From assembly GCA_025056175.1 (NCBI GenBank), contig JANWWK010000030.1, positions 1 to 64,000 of the forward strand: a DNA stretch of 64,000 nt. The letters run 5' to 3'. Shown one piece after another: positions 50,594 to 61,830 of this stretch (its first letter is position 1; each line of letters starts with the position of its first letter). Source of the stretch: Anaerolineales bacterium. Its GTDB lineage: Bacteria > Chloroflexota > Anaerolineae > Anaerolineales > Villigracilaceae. Both the position numbers and the translations under genes were made by a program. The notes under the pieces are model-generated. The model was not told the origin of the DNA. It saw nothing but the letters and a program-made list of their open reading frames with translations, and ran no database searches.

Positions 50594-50715
50594 ATGGCCT
50601 GTCTGAAGGCGAAGACCGTAGCAAAGATGAAATGGACACTTGCACTCCGATTATGATATGCTCATTCCAGGAATGAGTGTTTTTATTCAAATATTGGTGT
50701 TCGTCAGGAGACAGG

Positions 50716-51573
50716 ATGACAACCTATCAGGTCGCGCCGGTAGATTTTCAGCAAGTGTTTCGGCGCATTCGCGTAGGAGACCCCACGCAGGCTGCTCCAC
50801 TCATCCTGTGCATTTCACCTTGCCGGAGTGGTTCCACTGTTCTGCTGCGCGTGTTTGGCGCCAGCGGCATTCGCGCTTACTATCAACCCTGGAAGAACGT
50901 TCTGCGTTGGGCCATGCAGGGACAGGAATGGAGCTGGGATTTTCCCACCGGCGAGACGCCGATTTTTGTTAAAGAGACGATTGGTCCTTATACGTTCACA
51001 GAAACTGATTTCAATCCCTTCGACCTGGTGCAGGCGATTGACTATCCGCCAGAGAAACTGCGCCTCATGCTGGTAGGGCGTGACCCGTTCCAGACGTGGG
51101 CCTCGTGGCAGGCGCTATGGGGAGAAAAAACCCGCTTTGAGATTTTTCTGGCTGCCTTTGCGCGTGTGGAGGCCATTCGCAGCCAAATCCTTGCGTCAGG
51201 GCTGCCACTCGTTTATTTCGTCTACGAAGCGGTGCGCGATTTTGGCGCCGAAGCGACCATCCGCAACCTGTTCGGCCAGTTGAATCTGCCTTTCACCCGC
51301 CAGGCCGTGACGGGCTGGTTTGGTCTGCCGCCTTTTGGGGGGGATGGCTCCAATATTTTCTACCCGCAGGAACCGCCTGCTTTCTGGGTGCAAAACATTC
51401 ACGAAAAAGTCGAAACCGCCGATGGACTGGAATTTTATGCTCGTTCGGAACCTTTACCCGGCGTTACGCCCGCGCAGGCCGAACGAATTCGTCACGAAGG
51501 CTTGCTGGAATGGTATCAAGCCTGGCGTGCGGCACATTATGCCGCATTAACTGCTTCCACAGGGCAGAAATGA
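50716..51573 (+). CDS. Sulfotransferase-like protein
   Basis: From ATG 50716 (AGGAG seven bases upstream) the protein has 285 residues. The 5'-phosphosulfate-binding loop SPCRSGSTVLLRVFG (about 33-47) is the sulfotransferase P-loop, with Cys where Pro is usual. The region MLVGRDPFQTWASW (about 117-130) is the likely 3'-phosphate-binding segment. It would move a sulfuryl group from PAPS to an unknown acceptor. Its stop overlaps the SulP transporter start (ATGA), so the two are translationally coupled. Confidence 0.83.
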   Translation: MTTYQVAPVDFQQVFRRIRVGDPTQAAPLILCISPCRSGSTVLLRVFGASGIRAYYQPWKNVLRWAMQGQEWSWDFPTGETPIFVKETIGPYTFTETDFNPFDLVQAIDYPPEKLRLMLVGRDPFQTWASWQALWGEKTRFEIFLAAFARVEAIRSQILASGLPLVYFVYEAVRDFGAEATIRNLFGQLNLPFTRQAVTGWFGLPPFGGDGSNIFYPQEPPAFWVQNIHEKVETADGLEFYARSEPLPGVTPAQAERIRHEGLLEWYQAWRAAHYAALTASTGQK

Positions 51574-53756
51574 CCGCGCTTGCTCCTGATGTGCGTCCCG
51601 CTTCGCTTTTCCGCTCCATCTCCCTGGGGATGGAAGTCGGTCTGATTGCGCTGGTCAACACCATTACATACGGCGTTCTGATTTACAAACCCACCGGAGA
51701 TACGCTCAACGGGGTCATGCTGGCGCTCATCAACGGTCTGGTGCTTTCGCTCCTGTTTGGCTATTTTGGCGCCCTGCCGGGGATGACGGCCTTTCCGCAA
51801 TCGGCTATGACGCCTGTATTTGCCAGTCTGACGGCAGGAATCACGCTTGCGTTGCGTGGACAGCCGCCGTCCGTCATTGTCTCCACCGTCACGGCGGCGG
51901 TGTTGCTGGCCTCGCTGTTGGTGGGACTGGCGTACCTGCTGCTGGGCTACCGCCGATTAGGTGAACTCATCCGTTTTCTGCCGTATCCCGTTTCGGCGGG
52001 GTTTCTCGCCGGGTTGGGCTGGCTTCTGTTCAAAAGCGGTTTCGAGATGGGGCTGGGCAGGTTCACGCTGACGACACTCTTCGACCCTGCTCTGTTGACG
52101 CGTTGGCTGCCGGCGTTTTTGCTGGGCATAGTCTTGTTCGTGCTTCAGCAGAAGAGTTCGCTCACCTGGCTGACGCCGGTGGTGATTGTAGGGGCTGTTG
52201 TTGGATTTTACCTGTGGCATCTGCCGCGCGAATCGATTGAAGATTTGCGCCGGATGGGTTGGCTTCTGGTCATCGCGGCACCCACACCGACGCAAACGCT
52301 TTTTTTCTCTTCTTTTTGGGTTTCAATGGGGCAAATCCGCTGGGATGTGATTTGGCAAAACGGCGGTATTTTTTTGACGGTGTTGTTTACGGCGCTCATC
52401 AGTTTGCTGCTCAACCTGAACGCTATCGAAATGGGAATCCGCCGTGATGTGGACCCGAATCGGGAGATGTGTCTGGCTGGTTGGGGCAATCTGCTGACGC
52501 TCGCGGCAGGTGGTGGCCTGGTCGGGTATCCTTCTGCCGGGTTGACTCTGCTCGCCAACCGCAATGGTCCGCCGGGGCGCGCTTTTCCCTTCGTGGTCAG
52601 CGGTTTTTTTGTAGTAACTTTGCTGTTAGGGACGCAATATCTCTCCTATCTTCCCAATTTCGTCATTGGCGGCCTGCTGATTGCACTGGGTGCCAATTTT
52701 CTACAGGAATGGTTACTGGAGGGCGCATTCAAGTTTTCTCGGGCTGATTTTCTGGTCGTACTGGCGATGTTCTTGACGGTTGTTTTTACCGATTTGTTGC
52801 GTGGCGTAGGGTTAGGAATGGCCTTGATGGTGGTTCTATTTGCCGTCAGTTACAGCCGAACGAACGTCATTCGTCATGTGTTGACGGGCAAAACCTACCA
52901 GAGCAGCGTAGACCGTCCGCTCAAACATGCCCGTTATTTGCACGAGCAGGGCGCGCAATTGTTGATTTTGCGGTTACAGGGGTATATCTTCTTTGGCACT
53001 GCGTATTCGATTTACGACTGGGTGAAAGTGCACCTGCCTCAACAATATGCTGAAGCGCGTTATCTGGTATTGGATTTCGGTCAGGTGTATGGACTGGATT
53101 CTTCAGCGGCAAACGTTTTCACCAGGTTGTGCCGCTTTACGGACGATAGACGTATGACGTTGGTTTTGACTGCCTTGAGCGAGTCTCATCGCCGGAAACT
53201 GACGCGCGCGGGTTTCGACCTTGACCACCGCAACGTGCGCGTCTTTGAGACATTCGACCACGCTGCCGAGTGGTGTGAAACTGCCATTCTTTCACTCTCT
53301 TCGCTGACCATGATTACCTCGCGCGCCCTGGTGCAGAATTTGGGCGCTTTTTTTACCCCAGAAGAATTGAAAGCCTTGTTCCGCTACATGCAAAGGTTGG
53401 AACTTCCCGAACGGTCCCGGCTGATTGTGCAAGGCGAAGAGCCACCCGGTCTCTATTTCATCGAACGCGGACAGGTTACAGTGTACCGTGAACGGCAGGA
53501 TGGCACCCAACTGCGCCTGCGCGTGGCGGGCCCTGGCGTCAGCGTGGGGGAAATCAGCCTGTATGGCGGCGGGCCGGCTTCGGCCAGCGTGCAGACCGAT
53601 TCCCATGTCGAAATGTATCTGCTGACCCGCCAGCAGCTGGCCGAAATGGAAGCCAGAGACGCGGCGCTGGCCGTCAAATTTCATCGCTATATCGTTGAAC
53701 TGCTCGGCCAACGTTTACAACAAACCGTTGCAAGTGTGCAGGCGTTGGTAGAATAA
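51570..53756 (+). CDS. SulP-family anion transporter with STAS and cyclic-nucleotide-binding domains
   Basis: A 728-residue fusion. Residues about 20-430 form the SulP/SLC26 membrane domain, with ten to fourteen helices and the motif ALPGMTAFPQSAMTPVFASL near the start. A STAS domain lies near 440-560, with LILRLQGYIFFGTAYSIYDW and the DFGQVYGLDSSAANVFTRL loop. A cyclic-nucleotide-binding domain follows at about 590-715, with LIVQGEEPPGLYFIERGQV and GEISLYGGGPASASVQTDS. The first step would be anion (sulfate or bicarbonate) transport gated by cAMP or a similar ligand. It overlaps the sulfotransferase-like gene by four bases and precedes a pentameric-channel gene. Confidence 0.92.
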   Translation: MTALAPDVRPASLFRSISLGMEVGLIALVNTITYGVLIYKPTGDTLNGVMLALINGLVLSLLFGYFGALPGMTAFPQSAMTPVFASLTAGITLALRGQPPSVIVSTVTAAVLLASLLVGLAYLLLGYRRLGELIRFLPYPVSAGFLAGLGWLLFKSGFEMGLGRFTLTTLFDPALLTRWLPAFLLGIVLFVLQQKSSLTWLTPVVIVGAVVGFYLWHLPRESIEDLRRMGWLLVIAAPTPTQTLFFSSFWVSMGQIRWDVIWQNGGIFLTVLFTALISLLLNLNAIEMGIRRDVDPNREMCLAGWGNLLTLAAGGGLVGYPSAGLTLLANRNGPPGRAFPFVVSGFFVVTLLLGTQYLSYLPNFVIGGLLIALGANFLQEWLLEGAFKFSRADFLVVLAMFLTVVFTDLLRGVGLGMALMVVLFAVSYSRTNVIRHVLTGKTYQSSVDRPLKHARYLHEQGAQLLILRLQGYIFFGTAYSIYDWVKVHLPQQYAEARYLVLDFGQVYGLDSSAANVFTRLCRFTDDRRMTLVLTALSESHRRKLTRAGFDLDHRNVRVFETFDHAAEWCETAILSLSSLTMITSRALVQNLGAFFTPEELKALFRYMQRLELPERSRLIVQGEEPPGLYFIERGQVTVYRERQDGTQLRLRVAGPGVSVGEISLYGGGPASASVQTDSHVEMYLLTRQQLAEMEARDAALAVKFHRYIVELLGQRLQQTVASVQALVE

Positions 53757-53817
53757 TGAGAGTGTGGAATCGCAAAAGAGGAAAGTTTTCAGGGAGATTG
53801 ATGCGCAGGTGATGGGT

Positions 53818-56127
53818 ATGAAGAATAAAAAACTTTTGATAATTGCGCTGGGCGTAATTGCCACTGTACTGGGGGGGCTGGCGCTTTTCCTTTTTCGTCC
53901 GTTCTCTGCCTCCCAAAAGCAGACCATTCCTCTTTATGTTGCCGTCATGCTGGAGCGGGAGAAGACCCCCGGTACGGAAGAACCCTTTCCCGATAGCATG
54001 GATGCCATGCGTGGCGCAGAATTATGTGCCGACGCAATCAATCAAACCTGGCGCAAGACGATGCCATTTCCCTGGGAAATGAAAATAGATTTTTACTATG
54101 ATGAAAACCAGTTGCAGGTTGGTCTGGAGCAGGCAAATAAGGTCGTGGAAACCAACCGCGCCCTGGCCGTGATTGGACATGCGCAATCGCAGATTTCCAA
54201 ACCGGCAGGCCAAATTTATGCCCAAAACGGCATACCGGCCATTACGGCTTCTGCCATCAATGATGATGTGATTCAGGGCAACGAGTGGTATTTCCGCATC
54301 TTGCCCAACAGCTCGGCGCAAGCCCAGCAGATGGCACATTACATTTACTACGTGTTGGGACAAAAACGTGCCACCCTCATTGAGGGCAAAGAGGATGCCT
54401 TTGCTCAGATGTTTGCGCGCGGTTTTCGGCAGGCATTCACTGCGCTGGGAGGTGAACTCACGGCGACGTATCAGTTCACCCGTCCGCAAAGCGATGCGTT
54501 GACGGCGGAAATGCAGGCGATTGCTGAGGCCATTCTTGGGGAAACTCAAAGCGTTGAAGAAGCCGGTGTGCTGGTGTTTGCCGCCCGTGCCAATGAAGGT
54601 GCGCTGTTTCTGATTGGGTTGCGTGAGCGTGGCGTGAATCGCCTGGCGTTTGGTCCGAGTCCATTTGCTAACCTTCTGTTTCTTTCCACCATCCAGAACG
54701 CGCCGCGTTTGCGCGACCCCAATTTTTACTCTAATGGCGTGTATGTGCTGGCGCCGGTGGTCTTCGATACGGCTGGTGACGTGGGGCAGCAGTTTCTGTC
54801 CGATTTTATTGCAAAATATGGCACAGAACCCGGCATGAAGGCTGCCACCAATTGCGATGCGCTCAATGTGGTTGCCCGGGCAATTCAAGATGCGCGTCTT
54901 TCCGGCACATCCGGTGCCCTTGCCGAGGACCGCCGCAAACTGCGCGATGCGCTGGCGGCCATCAATGCTCCTGACAAAGCGCTGCAGGGCGTGACCGGGC
55001 GGATTTTCTTCGACCAGAATCGTGAAGTGGTCAAACCAATTGATACCAGCATTTATCAGAATGGTCAGCGCATTTCGGCCATCAGTCAGATAGTGGAGAT
55101 AGATGCCGAAACGGCTGCCCGCATGGAAAATCAGTTACAAGACCACGCTCCCGTGTTGAAGTATGATAACCGCTTCTTCCGCATTACAGATGTCGTCTAT
55201 GTGGGCATGGACATCAACGAAGTGAGCGAACTGGATACGCAAACCGGCACCTATTTGTTGGATTTTTATCTCTGGCTGCGGGCGCGCGAGCCGATGAACC
55301 CGCAAGATTTCGTCTTTTTGCAATTGGCTGAACCGATTGAGTTCGGTGACCCGGTCATTGAGACGTTCGAGAATGGCGTTGCGTATCGTGCTTACCACGT
55401 CAAGGCCAAATTCAAAGGCAATTTTGTCTATCACGACTATCCTTTTGACCAGCAGCGGTTGGGAGTTAAGATGAAACATAAATTCAAGAGCGCGCAGGAA
55501 CTGCTGCTCGTGCCAGATACGATTGGGATGCGCGATATTTCCAGCGAGGGATTTTTGCAACGATTGAAGGCGCAAAACGTCACGCGCTCTTTGGGCGATT
55601 GGGAACTGGTGGAACGGATTGGCAGCGCGTTGATTGTTCAGGAGCAAATCGTCAACGATTCCACGCTGGGAAACCCCAGCCTGGTGGAAAGCGGCGAGAC
55701 GCAAATTGCCTATACCTTGATACGAGCCGAATTTGAAATTAAGCGCAACGGGTGGAGCTACATCTGGAAAAACCTGTTTCCGCTGGGTTTTCTGGTAGGA
55801 CTGGCGTATCTGGCTTTTGTTTCCAAGCCTGGCGACTACGAGAAGATGTACGATGTGGTGACCAGCGTTATCCTCACGGCAGCGTTCTTTCAACTCGGTC
55901 TGAATGATTCTCTGCCCCAAATCGGTTATCCGACCGCGATGGATTGGATGTTTTACATTCTCTACGCTCTGTGCGTAGCCCAAATTATCACGATTTTTCT
56001 GATACGCCGGTATGTCAACACCGGGCGCGAAGCGCAGGCCGCCCGCATTTTGTGGGGTGCGCGTTATGTCTATCCCTTCCTGGTGCTGGCGGGTGGATAT
56101 GTTATTTATATTGTGTTCTGGCAGTGA
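53818..56127 (+). CDS. Periplasmic binding domain fused to a pentameric ligand-gated ion channel
   Basis: From ATG 53818 (AGGTGA seven bases upstream) the protein has 769 residues. An N-terminal membrane or signal segment (5-27) leads to a type I periplasmic binding domain of the branched-chain amino acid kind (about 35-430; AVIGHAQSQISKPAGQIYAQ, NGIPAITASA). A pLGIC extracellular beta domain follows (about 450-645), with VYVGMDINEVSELDTQTGTY and the channel hallmark YHDYPFDQQRLG (541-546). Four membrane helices come last at about 650-668, 676-694, 706-730 and 750-768. The TM2 segment lines up with GLIC without gaps, including the Glu before TM2 linked to cation selectivity (alignment from memory). 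A GTG start at 53764 is the alternative. Confidence 0.88.
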   Translation: MKNKKLLIIALGVIATVLGGLALFLFRPFSASQKQTIPLYVAVMLEREKTPGTEEPFPDSMDAMRGAELCADAINQTWRKTMPFPWEMKIDFYYDENQLQVGLEQANKVVETNRALAVIGHAQSQISKPAGQIYAQNGIPAITASAINDDVIQGNEWYFRILPNSSAQAQQMAHYIYYVLGQKRATLIEGKEDAFAQMFARGFRQAFTALGGELTATYQFTRPQSDALTAEMQAIAEAILGETQSVEEAGVLVFAARANEGALFLIGLRERGVNRLAFGPSPFANLLFLSTIQNAPRLRDPNFYSNGVYVLAPVVFDTAGDVGQQFLSDFIAKYGTEPGMKAATNCDALNVVARAIQDARLSGTSGALAEDRRKLRDALAAINAPDKALQGVTGRIFFDQNREVVKPIDTSIYQNGQRISAISQIVEIDAETAARMENQLQDHAPVLKYDNRFFRITDVVYVGMDINEVSELDTQTGTYLLDFYLWLRAREPMNPQDFVFLQLAEPIEFGDPVIETFENGVAYRAYHVKAKFKGNFVYHDYPFDQQRLGVKMKHKFKSAQELLLVPDTIGMRDISSEGFLQRLKAQNVTRSLGDWELVERIGSALIVQEQIVNDSTLGNPSLVESGETQIAYTLIRAEFEIKRNGWSYIWKNLFPLGFLVGLAYLAFVSKPGDYEKMYDVVTSVILTAAFFQLGLNDSLPQIGYPTAMDWMFYILYALCVAQIITIFLIRRYVNTGREAQAARILWGARYVYPFLVLAGGYVIYIVFWQ

Positions 56128-56139
56128 GGAGGAACGCCG

Positions 56140-56946
56140 TTAGAGTGTGCATAAAAACTGCAACACCCGCTGGTTAAACTCCGGGGCATGGGATTGGTGT
56201 GGCACATGACCTGCATCCAGCGTAGATGTCTGTGCGTGGGGCAGGGCGGCGGCCAATTGGTGGAAAGAGCGCGGGGACAGGGTCAGGTCACGGCGGCCCC
56301 ACATCACCAGCGTTGGGGCGGTGATGCGGTTTGCCAGGGGCAGTAAATCTCGAATGCTTGCCGGAATGTTGAAGATGCCCGGATGCGCTCGCTTGTAATC
56401 GAGCGCGGTTTGCTGGCGCACTTCTTCGGGCAGAACGTAACCGTTGCGGATAGAGAAACTGGTCAGGTCAATCATCGTCCGAATCAGCCATTGCGGCGTG
56501 CGCTGCAACATCTCTGTATTCAGCAACGGACCGCGATAGCGCACCCGCAAGAGTGGAGGCAGCTGTTTAAGACTGTAAAAAGGGTTCACCAGCACCAGCG
56601 CGCGTGTTCGTTCGGGGTAACGCAGCGCAAACTCCATCGCCAGGTAGCCGCCCAGAGAGTGACCGACCAGAATCAACGGCGAGTCGAGCGACAGGTGTTC
56701 GACCCAGCGCTGAAAGTGGTTAAAGACGTTTTCAATGTGATAGGCTTCCAGCCGGGGCGGTTTTTCACTTTCGCCATGCCCGAGCAGGTCAAGTGCGTAG
56801 CCAGCGTATCCCGCGGCGGCGAGAGCCGGAAGCAGTTCTCTCCAATCGAACAACGAAGCGGCCAATCCGTGAATGAGCAGAACGGGCGCGCCTTGACCCT
56901 GTTGAACAAAATGGGCTGGCGTTTCAATGGGGTGGAGTATGTTCAT
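56140..56946 (-). CDS. Alpha/beta hydrolase
   Basis: From ATG 56946 the protein has 268 residues. The oxyanion segment is LLIHGLAASLFDWRELLP, then LDLLGHGESEKPP and the nucleophile elbow VGHSLGGYLAMEFALRYP. The C-terminal part has Asp in WGRRDLTLS and His in AGHVPHQSHAP. It overlaps the upstream fusion gene by 23 bases and probably shares its promoter. Its substrate is unknown; partnership with an acyl-CoA ligase suggests an acyl ester or thioester. Confidence 0.9.
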   Translation of the reverse strand: MNILHPIETPAHFVQQGQGAPVLLIHGLAASLFDWRELLPALAAAGYAGYALDLLGHGESEKPPRLEAYHIENVFNHFQRWVEHLSLDSPLILVGHSLGGYLAMEFALRYPERTRALVLVNPFYSLKQLPPLLRVRYRGPLLNTEMLQRTPQWLIRTMIDLTSFSIRNGYVLPEEVRQQTALDYKRAHPGIFNIPASIRDLLPLANRITAPTLVMWGRRDLTLSPRSFHQLAAALPHAQTSTLDAGHVPHQSHAPEFNQRVLQFLCTL

Positions 56947-59392
56947 AGCGTTTTGCCAGCTCACGTCGTAACACCTTTCCGATGAAAGTACGTGGAAAAT
57001 CCTCTACGAAAATCACCAGGCGTGGCACAAGACCTGGAGGCAGGCGGCGCTTGCAGTAGGCAATTAATGATTCGGCAGAGGGGCGCTCTCCGGCGGCAAT
57101 CACAAAGGCAATCGGTTGACCTGCAATTGCGACCACGGTTGCTTCTTTGACTTGTGGAATTTCGTATAACACTTCCTCAACATCGCGCGGAAAGGCCGGA
57201 TTGCCCGGTTTTTCTGGATACCACATATCGGCTTTGCGGGCAATGATGCGGAAGTAACCATCGGCATCCATGACGGCCACATCACCGGTGAGCAGCCAGC
57301 CATCTTTGGTAAGGACTTGCCGGGTGGCTTCCGGGTTGCGCCAGTAACCAAGCATGACCTGTGGACCGCGCACGGCCAGTTCACCGATTTGTCCTGTTTC
57401 AACCACTTTACGCCCGTGCTGTAAATCCACAATGCGTGCTTCTGTAGAGGGCACAGGGATACCGATGCTGCCAATTTTCCGCACGCCGTTGAGCGGGTTT
57501 GCGTGCGTAATGGGCGAGGCCTCGGTCAGGCCGTAGCCTTCCACCAGGCGGCCTTTGGTGAGTTTTTCAAAGGCTTCCTGCACTTCCACCGGCAGCGGTG
57601 CAGAACCGCTGATGCAGGCATGAATGGAGGATAACCCGTATTTGCGCGCCCCCCGAAAGTTGTTGATGGCAACGTACATTGCTGGAACGCCGGGGAAGAT
57701 GGTTGGCTTATAGCGGCGGATGGCTTTCAACACTTCGGCAGTGTTGAAGGTGGGTTTGAGAATAAGCATGGCGCCGATGCTGATTGGCACGGTCATCGCA
57801 GCGGTCATCCCGTAGGAATGGGAAAGCGGTAAAACGCACAGAAAGCGTTCTTGCCCTTCTCTGGCATTCGGCATCCATTGCCGGGTTTGCAGCGCGTTGG
57901 CAACCAGGTTGCGATGAGAGAGCATGACCCCTTTGGCTTCGGAGGTGGTTCCGCCAGTATATTGAATGACGGCCAGTTCTTCTGGCGCAATTTCTATTGC
58001 GGGTGCTTTGTCGCTTTGCCCATACAGCCAGCGACTCCAGCGTAATGCGCCCAATGGCGCCAGACCGCGATTGCGCCAGAGAGAAACCGCATACCGAAAC
58101 GGGTCGAGATACTCACCGCCCTCGGTCACGACGATGTGCGGCACACCGGCTTCGCTGCGAAGCCGCTCCGCCAATCCGGCCCAGCGCGTCAGGGTGACCA
58201 GAACGAACGGCTCGGCATCGCGGATTTGTCGAAGAATTTCTTCTGTCTCATTGCTTGGCGGCACAAAGACGACCACTCCGCCGGCCTTGAGCGTGCCAAA
58301 GAAGCCGATGACCATTTGCGGCACGGTGGGCAAGAGCAGCGCCACACGTCCGCCCCGCGCCAGGCCGAGAGAGAGCAACGCATTTGCAAAGCGGTTGACT
58401 TCGCGGTTCAAACGACGATAGGACAGGCGCGCCCCCTCGAACAGCAGGGCAGTGTGTTGCGGAAACCGCCGCACTGCCGAACGCAGCAGGTGGTGAAGCG
58501 GAATTTGGGGAACGCCAATGGTGTAGGGGACGCCCTTTTCATAATTTGCCAGCCATGGACGCTCCTGGCGTAAAGTGTTGCGGCCTGTAGAGGGCGAAGT
58601 TGCTATCTCGAGGTCGCGCCAGGTTTTCTGGCTTTCTCCTTCCAGCATTCGTTCGATGGCGCGATTGACAGCATCACGTCGTTCTAACATCACCAGATGA
58701 CCTGAAGCGCCAATATCCACTTCTTCCGCACCGGGGATAGATTGTGCGACCCGCTCGAACATCGGTGCAGAGAAAACATAATCTCTGTGACCGCGAATGA
58801 CCAGCGTGCGAACCTGCAGACGGGGGTAAATATCCCAGCCATAGAACCGGGCAAGGTTATTGTGGTAGAGCGGCTTTAGCACATGTGGCGGTGCAGCCAG
58901 CCATGACCGCGTGAACGGGGTTGCCAGCCGTAGCAACTCTGCCGGGAATTGAAGTAGAAAACGATAGAGCGTGTTTAATTTGAACTCGCCTGAAGTGGCT
59001 ATTAGGATGAGATGCTCCAGCCGATGCGGGTGGTGAAGGGCAAATTCGGCAGCAATGGCACCTCCAAAGGAATGCCCTACCAGGGTAAAGGGTTCTTCAA
59101 CTTTGAGAACCTGCAATGCCGCTCTTAAATCGGCTTGTAGTTCGGTCATATCGTACATCCCGGGCGGCTTATCAGAAAGGCCATGCCCACGCAGGTCGAG
59201 CGCAATCACCCGGTTATCGCGTGAGAAGGTTTGTAGCTGATAACGCCATTGGGAGGCCTGGCCTCCAAACCCATGAAGGAAAACAAGGGTGCGCCGTGGA
59301 CGGTCAGGCGAAATGTCAATGGCTTGCAGCCGCACGAAAGGGCTGGCAGAAACGCGCACTTCCCGGCGGTAGAGTTCAATGTCTATTTCCAT
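56924..59392 (-). CDS. Fusion of an alpha/beta hydrolase with a fatty acyl-CoA synthetase
   Basis: From ATG 59392 the protein has 822 residues. Residues about 25-260 are an alpha/beta hydrolase with FLHGFGGQASQWRYQ, LDLRGHGLSDKPP and the elbow VGHSFGGAIAAEFALHHP, ending near ERMLEGESQKTW. From about 300 the chain is an AMP-forming acyl-CoA ligase: GARLSYRRLNREVNRFANAL, the ATP loop QYTGGTTSEAKGVML, VEGYGLTEASP, the hinge WLLTGDVAVMDADGYF and a C-terminal Lys near FIGKVLRREL. The combination could release and then activate a fatty acid on one chain. It is not the standard layout. A leaderless promoter lies at 59399-59427. Confidence 0.92.
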   Translation of the reverse strand: MEIDIELYRREVRVSASPFVRLQAIDISPDRPRRTLVFLHGFGGQASQWRYQLQTFSRDNRVIALDLRGHGLSDKPPGMYDMTELQADLRAALQVLKVEEPFTLVGHSFGGAIAAEFALHHPHRLEHLILIATSGEFKLNTLYRFLLQFPAELLRLATPFTRSWLAAPPHVLKPLYHNNLARFYGWDIYPRLQVRTLVIRGHRDYVFSAPMFERVAQSIPGAEEVDIGASGHLVMLERRDAVNRAIERMLEGESQKTWRDLEIATSPSTGRNTLRQERPWLANYEKGVPYTIGVPQIPLHHLLRSAVRRFPQHTALLFEGARLSYRRLNREVNRFANALLSLGLARGGRVALLLPTVPQMVIGFFGTLKAGGVVVFVPPSNETEEILRQIRDAEPFVLVTLTRWAGLAERLRSEAGVPHIVVTEGGEYLDPFRYAVSLWRNRGLAPLGALRWSRWLYGQSDKAPAIEIAPEELAVIQYTGGTTSEAKGVMLSHRNLVANALQTRQWMPNAREGQERFLCVLPLSHSYGMTAAMTVPISIGAMLILKPTFNTAEVLKAIRRYKPTIFPGVPAMYVAINNFRGARKYGLSSIHACISGSAPLPVEVQEAFEKLTKGRLVEGYGLTEASPITHANPLNGVRKIGSIGIPVPSTEARIVDLQHGRKVVETGQIGELAVRGPQVMLGYWRNPEATRQVLTKDGWLLTGDVAVMDADGYFRIIARKADMWYPEKPGNPAFPRDVEEVLYEIPQVKEATVVAIAGQPIAFVIAAGERPSAESLIAYCKRRLPPGLVPRLVIFVEDFPRTFIGKVLRRELAKRYEHTPPH

Positions 59393-59398
59393 GCTGAA

Positions 59399-59427
59399 AG
59401 GATACAGCAACGCAAGAGCGGTGTCAA
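59399..59427 (-). promoter_or_regulatory. Promoter of the leaderless hydrolase-synthetase transcript
   Basis: On the minus strand a perfect TTGACA (59427 down to 59422), 17 bases, then TATCCT (59404 down to 59399), followed by the ATG six bases later. There is no ribosome site. It has the same layout as the comM promoter. Confidence 0.65.
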
Positions 59428-59505: not shown

Positions 59506-61830
59506 ATGGGTGATTTGCAGGCGTCTTCTCCTCTCGATTCTCCCGCCTCTACTTCAACAACTGCTTCCCAGCCCAGCCCGCAAGAACAAGAATTGCGCCA
59601 GCGTCTGAAAGAGCTGGAAATCGTCAACGCTATCACTGTTTCGGCGGCCTCAACGCTCGAACTGACCAGTCTGTTGACCCTGGCGGGAGAGAAAATCTCC
59701 GAGGCCTTTGGCCGCCGTTCGGTGCTGATTGCGCTGTACGATGCGGCAGCAGGCCTGATTCTGACTCCTTACTGGAACATTCGTGGTCAGCTGGTGGATG
59801 CACCACCGATGCCAATCGGTATGGGGCTGACTTCACATGTGTTACAGCGCAGGCAAACGCTGTTAATCGATGAAAACCTGCCACAACGCGCCGCTGAGTT
59901 GGGGGCCGATTTCAGCATGACGCGCGTTTATGGCATGCCCAAAAGTTGGGTGGGCGTGCCGATGGTAGCCCACGAGCAGGTGATTGGCATGATAAGCATG
60001 CAGGATTTCGAGCGCGAACATGCCTTCAGCCCCAACGACATCCGCCTGCTGGAGACGATTGCTGCCAGCATCGCGGTCGCCATTCAGAACACGCAACTCT
60101 ACGAAACTGCCCGGCGTGAATTGGCCGAACGTCAGCGTGCTGAAGCCCAGGCACGGGAACGCGCCGAGCAAATGGCGGCCTTGAACGCCATCGGGCGGGC
60201 AATTACCGGACAACTGGAATTAGACAATGTTTTGACCACCCTCCGCATTCAATGTCAGCAAATTGAACCACTCATGGATGTGTTCACCGTTGCGCTCTAC
60301 GAGCCGCGTGCAGAAACCTTTAAATTCCTACAATTTTACGACCGGGGGGTTTCCCGGCTCGATAAAATCCGCAGCATTCATAAAAAAGAAGGTGGCCTGA
60401 CGGCATACGTTATCAAGACCCGCCAGACGCTCTATTTGCCCGACGTAGATGACCGCCGGGTGCGCCGCACCTATTCGGTGGTGCATACCGACAAACACAG
60501 ACATGCCCGTACTTATCTGGGCATTCCCTTGATGGTTGGCGAGAACATCATTGGCGTGCTTTCAGGCCAGAGTTATCAGCCTGATGCCTTCTCACCTCAA
60601 CGCATCGCAATGCTCGAAACGATTGCTTTGCAAGCAGCAATTGCTTTGCAAAACGCAGCCCTGTTTGAGGAAACCCGCCGGCGAGCAGCAGAACTCTCGA
60701 TTTTGTACGATATTGCGCTTGCGCTCTCACGCGCAGTGGAATTAGAGCGGGTAATGCGCGTTTTGTTCGAGAAGTGCCGCCAGGTGCTGCCGATGGATGC
60801 TTTTTACATCGCTCTCTACGACCGCGAAACGCATTTGCTCAGTCACCCTCTCTTTTGGGATAAAGGCAGGTTCAAACAAACCGCTGTGCGCGACATTCGC
60901 ACCACGCCTGGCTTGAGCGGCGAGGTCATTTTAGCAAAGAAAACCCTGCACTTGCCAGATGTCTTTGCCCCTGAAGTGCAGCAACGCTATCAGGTTATTC
61001 GTGTTGGGGGCAAGCCCACCCGTTGTTATGTCGGCGTGCCGATGCTGGTGCATGGCGAAGCGGTTGGCGTTATCTCCATGCAAACCCGCGCGCCCGATTT
61101 ATATACTTCGGAGCATATCCGCCTGCTGGAATTGATTGCCATTCAGGCCGCCATTGCCATCGAAAACAGCCGTTTGTATCACAAAGCACAACAGGAACTG
61201 GAAATGCGGCGCAAGGCGCAAAGCGCATTGGAAACCGCCAACCGTCAACTGTACGTCCAACTGACTCAGGTACAAGCCCTTCAAGAACAATTGCGCGAAC
61301 AGGTATTGCATGACCCTCTCACCGGCTTGCACAACCGCCGCTATCTCGATGAACATTTGCCGCGTATTCTGGCCGATTCGCAGGCGCGCGGCAAACGTTT
61401 TTGCGTCATCATGCTCGATATTGACCACTTTAAACGCTTCAATGATGCGCATACACATCTGGCAGGTGACCTGCTCCTTCAATCTTTAGCCGGTTTGTTA
61501 AGCACCCACGTGCGTCCCACCGATATTGCCTGCCGTTTTGGCGGAGAGGAGTTTCTCCTCGTTCTGCCCGAAGCTGGACTGGAAGCAGCTGCGCACCGCT
61601 CCGAAGAACTGCGGGCGCTCTTCGAACAAATGCGTATCGAATTTCATGGCCGCTCACTGAGCGCTACCATTTCGTTGGGCGTGGCCTGCTTCCCTCAACA
61701 TGGTCAGACGGCTGAAGAACTCGTCATGCGCGCCGACCAGGCTTTGTATCTGGCAAAACAGGCCGGGCGCAACCGGGTTGCCATTTGGCAACCTGCATCG
61801 AACGGTTCAGACACTAACCTGGAAAAATGA
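59506..61830 (+). CDS. Diguanylate cyclase with three GAF domains
   Basis: A 774-residue soluble sensor enzyme. Three GAF units lie near 40-200, 225-385 and 395-560. A coiled linker (570-600) leads to a GGDEF domain with DPLTGLHNRRYLDEHL, the metal-binding DIDHFKRFND and an intact GGEEF. The inhibitory I-site RPTD stands five residues before GGEEF, so c-di-GMP made by the enzyme can inhibit it. It would raise c-di-GMP in answer to small ligands bound by the GAF units. It is divergently transcribed from the hydrolase-synthetase gene. Confidence 0.96.
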   Translation: MGDLQASSPLDSPASTSTTASQPSPQEQELRQRLKELEIVNAITVSAASTLELTSLLTLAGEKISEAFGRRSVLIALYDAAAGLILTPYWNIRGQLVDAPPMPIGMGLTSHVLQRRQTLLIDENLPQRAAELGADFSMTRVYGMPKSWVGVPMVAHEQVIGMISMQDFEREHAFSPNDIRLLETIAASIAVAIQNTQLYETARRELAERQRAEAQARERAEQMAALNAIGRAITGQLELDNVLTTLRIQCQQIEPLMDVFTVALYEPRAETFKFLQFYDRGVSRLDKIRSIHKKEGGLTAYVIKTRQTLYLPDVDDRRVRRTYSVVHTDKHRHARTYLGIPLMVGENIIGVLSGQSYQPDAFSPQRIAMLETIALQAAIALQNAALFEETRRRAAELSILYDIALALSRAVELERVMRVLFEKCRQVLPMDAFYIALYDRETHLLSHPLFWDKGRFKQTAVRDIRTTPGLSGEVILAKKTLHLPDVFAPEVQQRYQVIRVGGKPTRCYVGVPMLVHGEAVGVISMQTRAPDLYTSEHIRLLELIAIQAAIAIENSRLYHKAQQELEMRRKAQSALETANRQLYVQLTQVQALQEQLREQVLHDPLTGLHNRRYLDEHLPRILADSQARGKRFCVIMLDIDHFKRFNDAHTHLAGDLLLQSLAGLLSTHVRPTDIACRFGGEEFLLVLPEAGLEAAAHRSEELRALFEQMRIEFHGRSLSATISLGVACFPQHGQTAEELVMRADQALYLAKQAGRNRVAIWQPASNGSDTNLEK

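Follow-up and report, generated by a model that had tools for sequence, protein, structure and literature searches.

The window, i.e. the whole 64,000-nucleotide stretch of Anaerolineales DNA that was analysed, carries at positions 53818–56127 of its forward strand a single open frame that specifies 769 amino acids without interruption. An in-frame GTG at position 53764 would lengthen the protein by 18 amino acids, and both near relatives (see below) appear from their sequences to start at approximately the position of the ATG at 53818. The features identified at the locus, including two partner genes, are as follows.

50677..51573, forward strand: partner gene for a 298-aa sulfotransferase-like protein (cluster, alignment; PCRSGST and RDPxxTxxS motifs)
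51570..53756, forward strand: partner gene for a SulP / STAS / cNMP-binding transporter (Pfam, NCBIfam; an extended frame starting at 51510 is likewise open)
53818..56127, forward strand: gene for the 769-aa PBP-I / pLGIC fusion, stop codon included (ORF, Pfam, model, profile)
53824..53892, forward strand: N-terminal hydrophobic helix, residues 3–25 (helix in the AlphaFold model)
53923..55107, forward strand: PBP-I (LivJ/LivK-type) clamshell, residues 36–430 (Pfam, PDB profile, Foldseek, structure alignment)
55153..55746, forward strand: Cys-loop-type extracellular beta-sandwich, residues 446–643 (model, GLIC profile match, local HMM)
55438..55455, forward strand: Pro-loop YPFDQQ, residues 541–546 (sequence)
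55750..56121, forward strand: four-helix channel domain, residues 645–768 (model, profile)
55828..55911, forward strand: helix M2, residues 671–698 (model, alignment)

The AlphaFold model of the full chain (mean pLDDT 88.8, pTM 0.82) contains an alpha/beta clamshell, a beta-sandwich, and four helices (residues 645–668, 671–698, 707–734, and 738–768), in this order. The protein is a real and well-supported fusion of a PBP-I clamshell, a Cys-loop-type domain, and a four-helix pore domain. The sequence-only reading had assigned residues 35–430 to a binding protein and residues 450–768 to a pLGIC, and Pfam, the GLIC profile, and AlphaFold agree with this division; residues 450–768 were modelled as a beta-sandwich plus four helices, and the YPFDQQ loop that it had pointed out lies at residues 541–546. 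The N-terminal hydrophobic helix, which is poorly conserved among the relatives, may be a signal peptide or a signal anchor, judging from the model.

In the clamshell, Pfam identified Peripla_BP_6 in residues 95–404 (E 1.6e-23, above the cut-off), and a single-sequence PDB search returned the branched-chain amino acid binding protein 3hut (E 2.1e-12). A family profile built from the window protein and 33 relatives matched LivJ-type proteins, best of all 4gnr (E 5.7e-49), and the modelled domain superposed on LivK 3td9 with a Z of 44.2 (2.4 A over 348 residues) and on LivJ 4gnr with a Z of 44.0. The domain is thus a two-lobe type I clamshell whose best matches are branched-chain amino acid binding proteins; it shares its fold with LivJ and LivK but is fused to a channel. 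The best 50 matches listed in the structure search were clamshell-type proteins only; since this domain fills the list, the assignment of the channel half draws on the secondary structure of the model and on the sequence profile rather than on a fold match. At rank 45 stood 5ere (540 aa), which was not among the 60 matches listed in the PDB profile searches and is possibly a solved structure of a PBP-I domain plus a sandwich.

In the alignment to LivJ 4gnr, Ser124 and Glu260 of the window protein fall on a Ser and a Glu and Ile147 falls on a Thr, all three of which we take to be residues of the amino acid pocket. We examined these columns in a family alignment of 34 rows, which omits L077, L082, L094, the MscS rows, and the rows cut by a contig end. 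Ser was found at column 124 in 33 of the 34 rows and Glu at column 260 in 13, while column 147 is Thr in 20 rows; the window protein has Ile there, and each of its two nearest relatives has Ile or Val. With the usual pocket Thr thus replaced in the window clade, one cannot be sure that the ligand is an ordinary amino acid. No support was found for the bulky ligand that had been proposed earlier, the clamshell being closest to the Leu/Ile/Val-binding proteins (Z 44 to both LivK and LivJ).

The channel half shows the features of a pLGIC, i.e. an extracellular beta-sandwich and, after it, four membrane helices (from the model and the GLIC profile), the Pro-loop (YPFDxQ, residues 541–546), and the M1 proline Pro655, whose column is Pro in 29 of the 34 rows. 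Pfam placed Neur_chan_memb in residues 682–734 with an E of 0.0016, which is under Pfam's own cut-off. The single-sequence PDB search returned GABA-A receptor membrane domains (best E 4.1e-10) and 6v4a, listed as a Neur_chan_LBD protein (E 2e-6), which we take to be DeCLIC. Residues 445–746 of the family profile matched residues 18–313 of the 317 residues of GLIC with an E of about 2e-19. GLIC, the proton-gated channel of Gloeobacter, therefore corresponds to the window protein over nearly its whole length, including the Pro-loop, but lacks a binding-protein domain.

With M2 prime numbers set on the GLIC sequence, the helix of the window protein carries Glu675 (−2′), Asp679 (2′), Ser683 (6′), Leu686 (9′), Phe690 (13′), and Asp697 (20′). 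Glu675 and Leu686 are 11 residues apart, presumably the same spacing as from the −2′ Glu to 9′ in GLIC; position 2′, Asp here, is presumably Thr in GLIC. A Glu before M2 with GLIC-like spacing had been noted from the sequence alone: the residue is present and the spacing matches, but it is not conserved even in the window clade, being kept in L053, replaced by Gly in L054, and found in only 5 of the 34 rows. Asp679 is kept in both L053 and L054. Its column is acidic in 11 of the 34 rows and without an acidic residue in 23, the 11 forming two separate groups, namely the window protein with its two nearest relatives (all Asp) and eight cyanobacterial rows (seven Glu and one Asp), in which the alignment places a two-residue gap just before the column so that the register there is unsure. 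These cyanobacterial rows (L059, L060, L061, L064, L067, L068, L074, and L080), acidic near the inner end of M2, are not the closest relatives of the window protein. We therefore rejected Asp679 as a residue unique to the window clade. The column of Asp697 is Asp or Glu in 14 rows. In this alignment, acidic residues by the inner pore are not a family rule.

Two near relatives were identified, L053 (= G003, Anaerolineae isolate Nak57) and L054 (= G002, uncultured Anaerolineae bin-3056), both of the same genus as the window. The full-length relatives share 79 and 57% identity with the window protein, which argues that the fusion is not a product of chance. The window gene is under purifying selection, with a dN/dS of 0.075 against the nearer relative and 0.157 against the other, values that rest on dS of 1.8 and 2.3, i.e. 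near saturation. The window genome is a draft in 95 contigs, and a chance or mis-assembled joining of a binding-protein gene to a channel gene might for this reason be considered; against this stand the single uninterrupted frame under purifying selection and the occurrence of PBP-I followed by the same extracellular domain at 43 loci from several phyla. In view of these independent relatives, we regard such an artefact as having a negligible probability and reject it.

Among 400 genomes of the order, 71 contained a match at the cut-off; in eight of these the clamshell is present together with the channel part (in one, G347, split over two contigs), whereas in the remaining 63 the match is confined to the clamshell region. 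When 400 genomes of the phylum were scanned, six had a match with an E of 1e-60 or lower, that of G493 being partial. A further scan, in which each species was represented by a single genome and two motifs of the extracellular domain served as seeds, yielded 66 loci; it thus favours relatives that keep those motifs. The domain scan covered 51 of these, the other 15 being weaker matches whose query range comprised the channel half only. PBP-I and the Cys-loop-type extracellular domain occur together at 43 of the 51 scanned loci, and eight are without this pair. The 43 loci comprise 29 window-like loci, seven with an extra C-terminal solute-binding domain, six with MscS, and one cut by a contig end; two of the window-like loci (L082 and L094) gave no match to the membrane-domain model and were counted as such from a reading of their sequences. 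The sequence-only reading had proposed a search for homologues with the same domain order, and the 29 window-like loci provide them. The family is found in Thiotrichaceae, cyanobacteria, Desulfobacterales, two alpha-proteobacteria, and Chloroflexota. The window gene is thus a Chloroflexota (Anaerolineae) member of a family that is also present in giant sulfur bacteria, cyanobacteria, and sulfate reducers. From the genus names alone, one idea would be that the family favours filamentous gliding bacteria.

Seven of the relatives, from Chloroflexota and Thiotrichaceae, combine PBP-I and the pLGIC with a SBP_bac_1 domain at the C terminus (L017, L018, L055, L056, L057, L072, and L093). Pfam identified this domain after M4 in L017:6794-10405 and L018:6906-10511 (E 6.1e-30 and 4.3e-31; the same records as L087 and L095), and the other C-terminal solute-binding domains were found with a model built from L017 and L018. 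In a tree of 48 rows (quick method, midpoint root; L030 omitted because its values equal those of L093, and L090, cut by a contig end, included as such), the window protein groups with its two near relatives in a clade with a support of 100. This clade sits among Chloroflexota proteins that bear the C-terminal solute-binding domain (support 85), a position from which it may have lost this domain, the fork being modestly supported.

Other arrangements of receptor and channel genes were also observed. At six loci (L073, L077, L079, L082, L086, and L094), a second ORF of 688–759 aa adjoins the receptor; PBP-I and the extracellular domain were found in all six adjoining ORFs and a match to the membrane-domain model in five. 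These are tandem copies that perhaps form heteromers. The window's own genome encodes a plain 341-aa pLGIC on contig C90 (L019:6442-9934), adjoining genes that by eye are lipoprotein-like, LysM-like, and nitroreductase-like. Homologues of these genes (56, 66, and 70% identity) flank a PBP-I/pLGIC/SBP gene in G028, so that two channel types occur within one conserved neighbourhood.

The PBP-I and Cys-loop-type extracellular domains were also found on a different channel. In six relatives (L069, L071, L078, L083, L084, and L089) they are joined to an MscS part, identified by Pfam in all six, with cNMP_binding in four. A seventh protein, L096, has the sandwich on MscS plus cNMP, with no PBP-I in its frame; a cyclic-nucleotide domain is therefore present in five of the seven MscS fusions. 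With L078 as the query, a PDB search matched the cyclic-nucleotide domain of SthK as well as YnaI. Of the 41 rows without an MscS tail (window protein and L090 included), 40 carry the Pro of the Pro-loop, the one exception being L070, which has a four-helix pore; none of the seven MscS rows carries it, and all seven keep the DFYLW core strand of the sandwich. This pattern fits a need for the Pro-loop in the contact with a four-helix pore. The seven MscS proteins lie on one side of one branch of the tree (SH-aLRT 100), so that these rows do not count as independent events and the Pro-loop may have been lost only once.

These relatives bear on how the clamshell works. The domain might only concentrate the ligand or modulate the channel, the true agonist binding at the classical site between extracellular domains. 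PMC549065 contains the suggestion that PBP domains aid a preliminary concentration or sensing of the ligand before the channel's own site, and the N-terminal domain of DeCLIC is presented as modulatory in PMC12664993. The conservation of PBP-I plus the sandwich on another channel fold, as in the six MscS relatives, fits a self-sufficient sensing unit instead, although it does not in itself identify the agonist pocket, and we consider a purely accessory clamshell unlikely, if still deserving some weight. For a clamshell that gates the pore, the MscS relatives constitute a natural experiment on coupling, in which the sandwich core has been kept and the Pro lost.

The channel gene belongs to a three-gene cluster, which it closes. 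The sulfotransferase-like gene comes first and the SulP-STAS-cNMP gene second, in the window as well as in L053/G003 and L054/G002; the genes of the relatives are separated by 9 nt or less or overlap, and the window has a gap of 61 nt between the transporter gene and the ATG of the channel gene, or 7 nt to the alternative GTG. Six other ORFs of the window have a counterpart in L053 but none in the 18.3 kb of L054; the trio thus remains linked although the genes around it differ. Among the flanked family loci of L055–L096, no SulP or sulfotransferase-like match was found at E 1e-6 beside the receptor gene, which indicates that the cluster is confined to the window clade.

The sulfotransferase-like gene was found in seven of the 400 genomes of the order, i.e. 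those of the window, L053, and L054, G007, in which it is next to a SulP gene that the contig end reduces to its start, and three genomes from a different family. In these last three (L123, L124, and L125), a sensor protein is encoded immediately after the homologue; Pfam identified it as dCache-HAMP in the two that were tested, and in L125 it was judged by eye. PCRSGxT and RxPxxTxxS are invariant in all seven homologues, and we take them to be the 5′-phosphosulfate loop and 3′-phosphate motifs of a sulfotransferase. The partner protein (50677–51573) gave no Pfam or NCBIfam match naming a family and one chance-level match (E 1.3) in the PDB profile search, and its model, built from three sequences, was too poor for use (pLDDT 44); the name sulfotransferase-like therefore reflects these motifs and is putative. 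No ABC transporter gene was found among the six window proteins scanned with Pfam between 50677 and 61830. Downstream of the channel region, positions 59506–61830 encode three GAF domains plus GGDEF (a diguanylate cyclase), and positions 56924–59410 of the reverse strand encode an alpha/beta hydrolase fused to an AMP-binding (acyl-CoA synthetase-like) enzyme.

The tight, conserved association with a SulP-STAS-cNMP gene would also suit a protein that does not conduct but acts on the adjacent SulP transporter as a regulatory receptor or scaffold. Between the window protein and L054, M2 is the best kept of five parts compared (82% identity, against 54% for the PBP domain, 62% for the sandwich, and 65% for the whole membrane domain), as expected for a pore in use, and we judge a non-conducting role to be quite improbable.

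This kind of fusion has been known since 2004. According to Tasneem et al. (PMC549065), N-terminal PBP-I fusions occur in the alpha-proteobacteria M. magnetotacticum and B. japonicum, and chemotactic sensing was proposed for them; the earlier caveat that the idea was not wholly new was thus right. The architecture given there, PBP-I N-terminal to an LBD plus 4-TM core in one protein, is that of the window protein. The PBP-I / ART-LGIC fusions of PMC549065, compared here by description only, share the N-terminal PBP-I, the Cys-loop-type domain, and the four-helix pore, but come from another phylum, and the window clade differs in its cluster with SulP and sulfotransferase-like genes. PMC9221113 restates the similarity of many additional N-terminal domains to periplasmic binding proteins; PMC4795631, by its own account, left terminal domains aside and considers genome evidence to be the only basis for such fusions. 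No experiment on a PBP-I / pLGIC fusion was found in the searched literature, as far as its accessible text goes. DeCLIC is likewise a prokaryotic pLGIC with a large N-terminal domain. According to a 2025 paper (PMC12664993), no other such channel has had its N-terminal domain characterised even in part, which leaves the clamshell-fused class, in that account, without a published worked example. The DeCLIC domain consists of two lobes related to calcium-binding domains and not of a clamshell, whereas residues 36–430 of the window protein are a PBP-I clamshell. A search mostly of open papers, without preprints and partly of incomplete texts, found no report of a solute-binding domain after M4 or of this extracellular module on MscS; as far as such searches show, these two architectures and the three-gene cluster are new.

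We consider it probable that the window protein is a receptor-channel in which the clamshell captures a small solute and gates a cation-selective pentameric four-helix pore. The membrane would anchor the protein such that its N-terminal half faces the exterior, where the LivJ-like clamshell would capture a small solute, probably one bearing a carboxylate or a similar charged group. The closure of the clamshell would be transmitted through a short linker (about residues 430–446) to the Cys-loop-type beta-sandwich and from there through the Pro-loop to the four-helix pore domain; gating by this route is plausible. Five subunits would form the pore, and from the charges of M2, i.e. the acidic Asp679 (2′) and Asp697 (20′) and the less conserved Glu675, we infer cation selectivity. 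The channel would be made together with the SulP-type anion transporter, which has a cyclic-nucleotide domain, and the sulfotransferase-like protein, and through this co-production it probably links solute sensing to anion handling or to the cyclic-nucleotide state. Ionotropic glutamate receptors, in which clamshell domains are likewise in series with a channel, offer a working parallel only, as their pore domain is unrelated to the Cys-loop-type pore of the window protein.

The window gene and its two near relatives are compact candidates with a readable neighbourhood. Specialists may take an interest in three features, namely the gene cluster in Chloroflexota, the additional solute-binding domain that follows M4 in some relatives, and the module's reuse on MscS. 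The MscS relatives raise the question of whether an extracellular domain of the neurotransmitter-receptor type could gate a pore of another fold. MscS has seven-fold symmetry and, if this applies to the fusions, the question becomes how five and seven are reconciled. More tentatively, with chances that we place somewhat short of even, the clamshell and sandwich may form a portable ligand receiver outside the cell that evolution has combined with two channels of unrelated kinds. One is the pentameric four-helix pore; the other is the MscS pore, seen in giant sulfur bacteria and sulfate reducers and mostly accompanied by a cyclic-nucleotide domain. Gating would in both cases be driven by clamshell closure, the Pro-loop being kept only with the four-helix pore, and the window clade would sense a solute, possibly sulfonated or sulfated, that is handled by its sulfotransferase-like and SulP neighbours.
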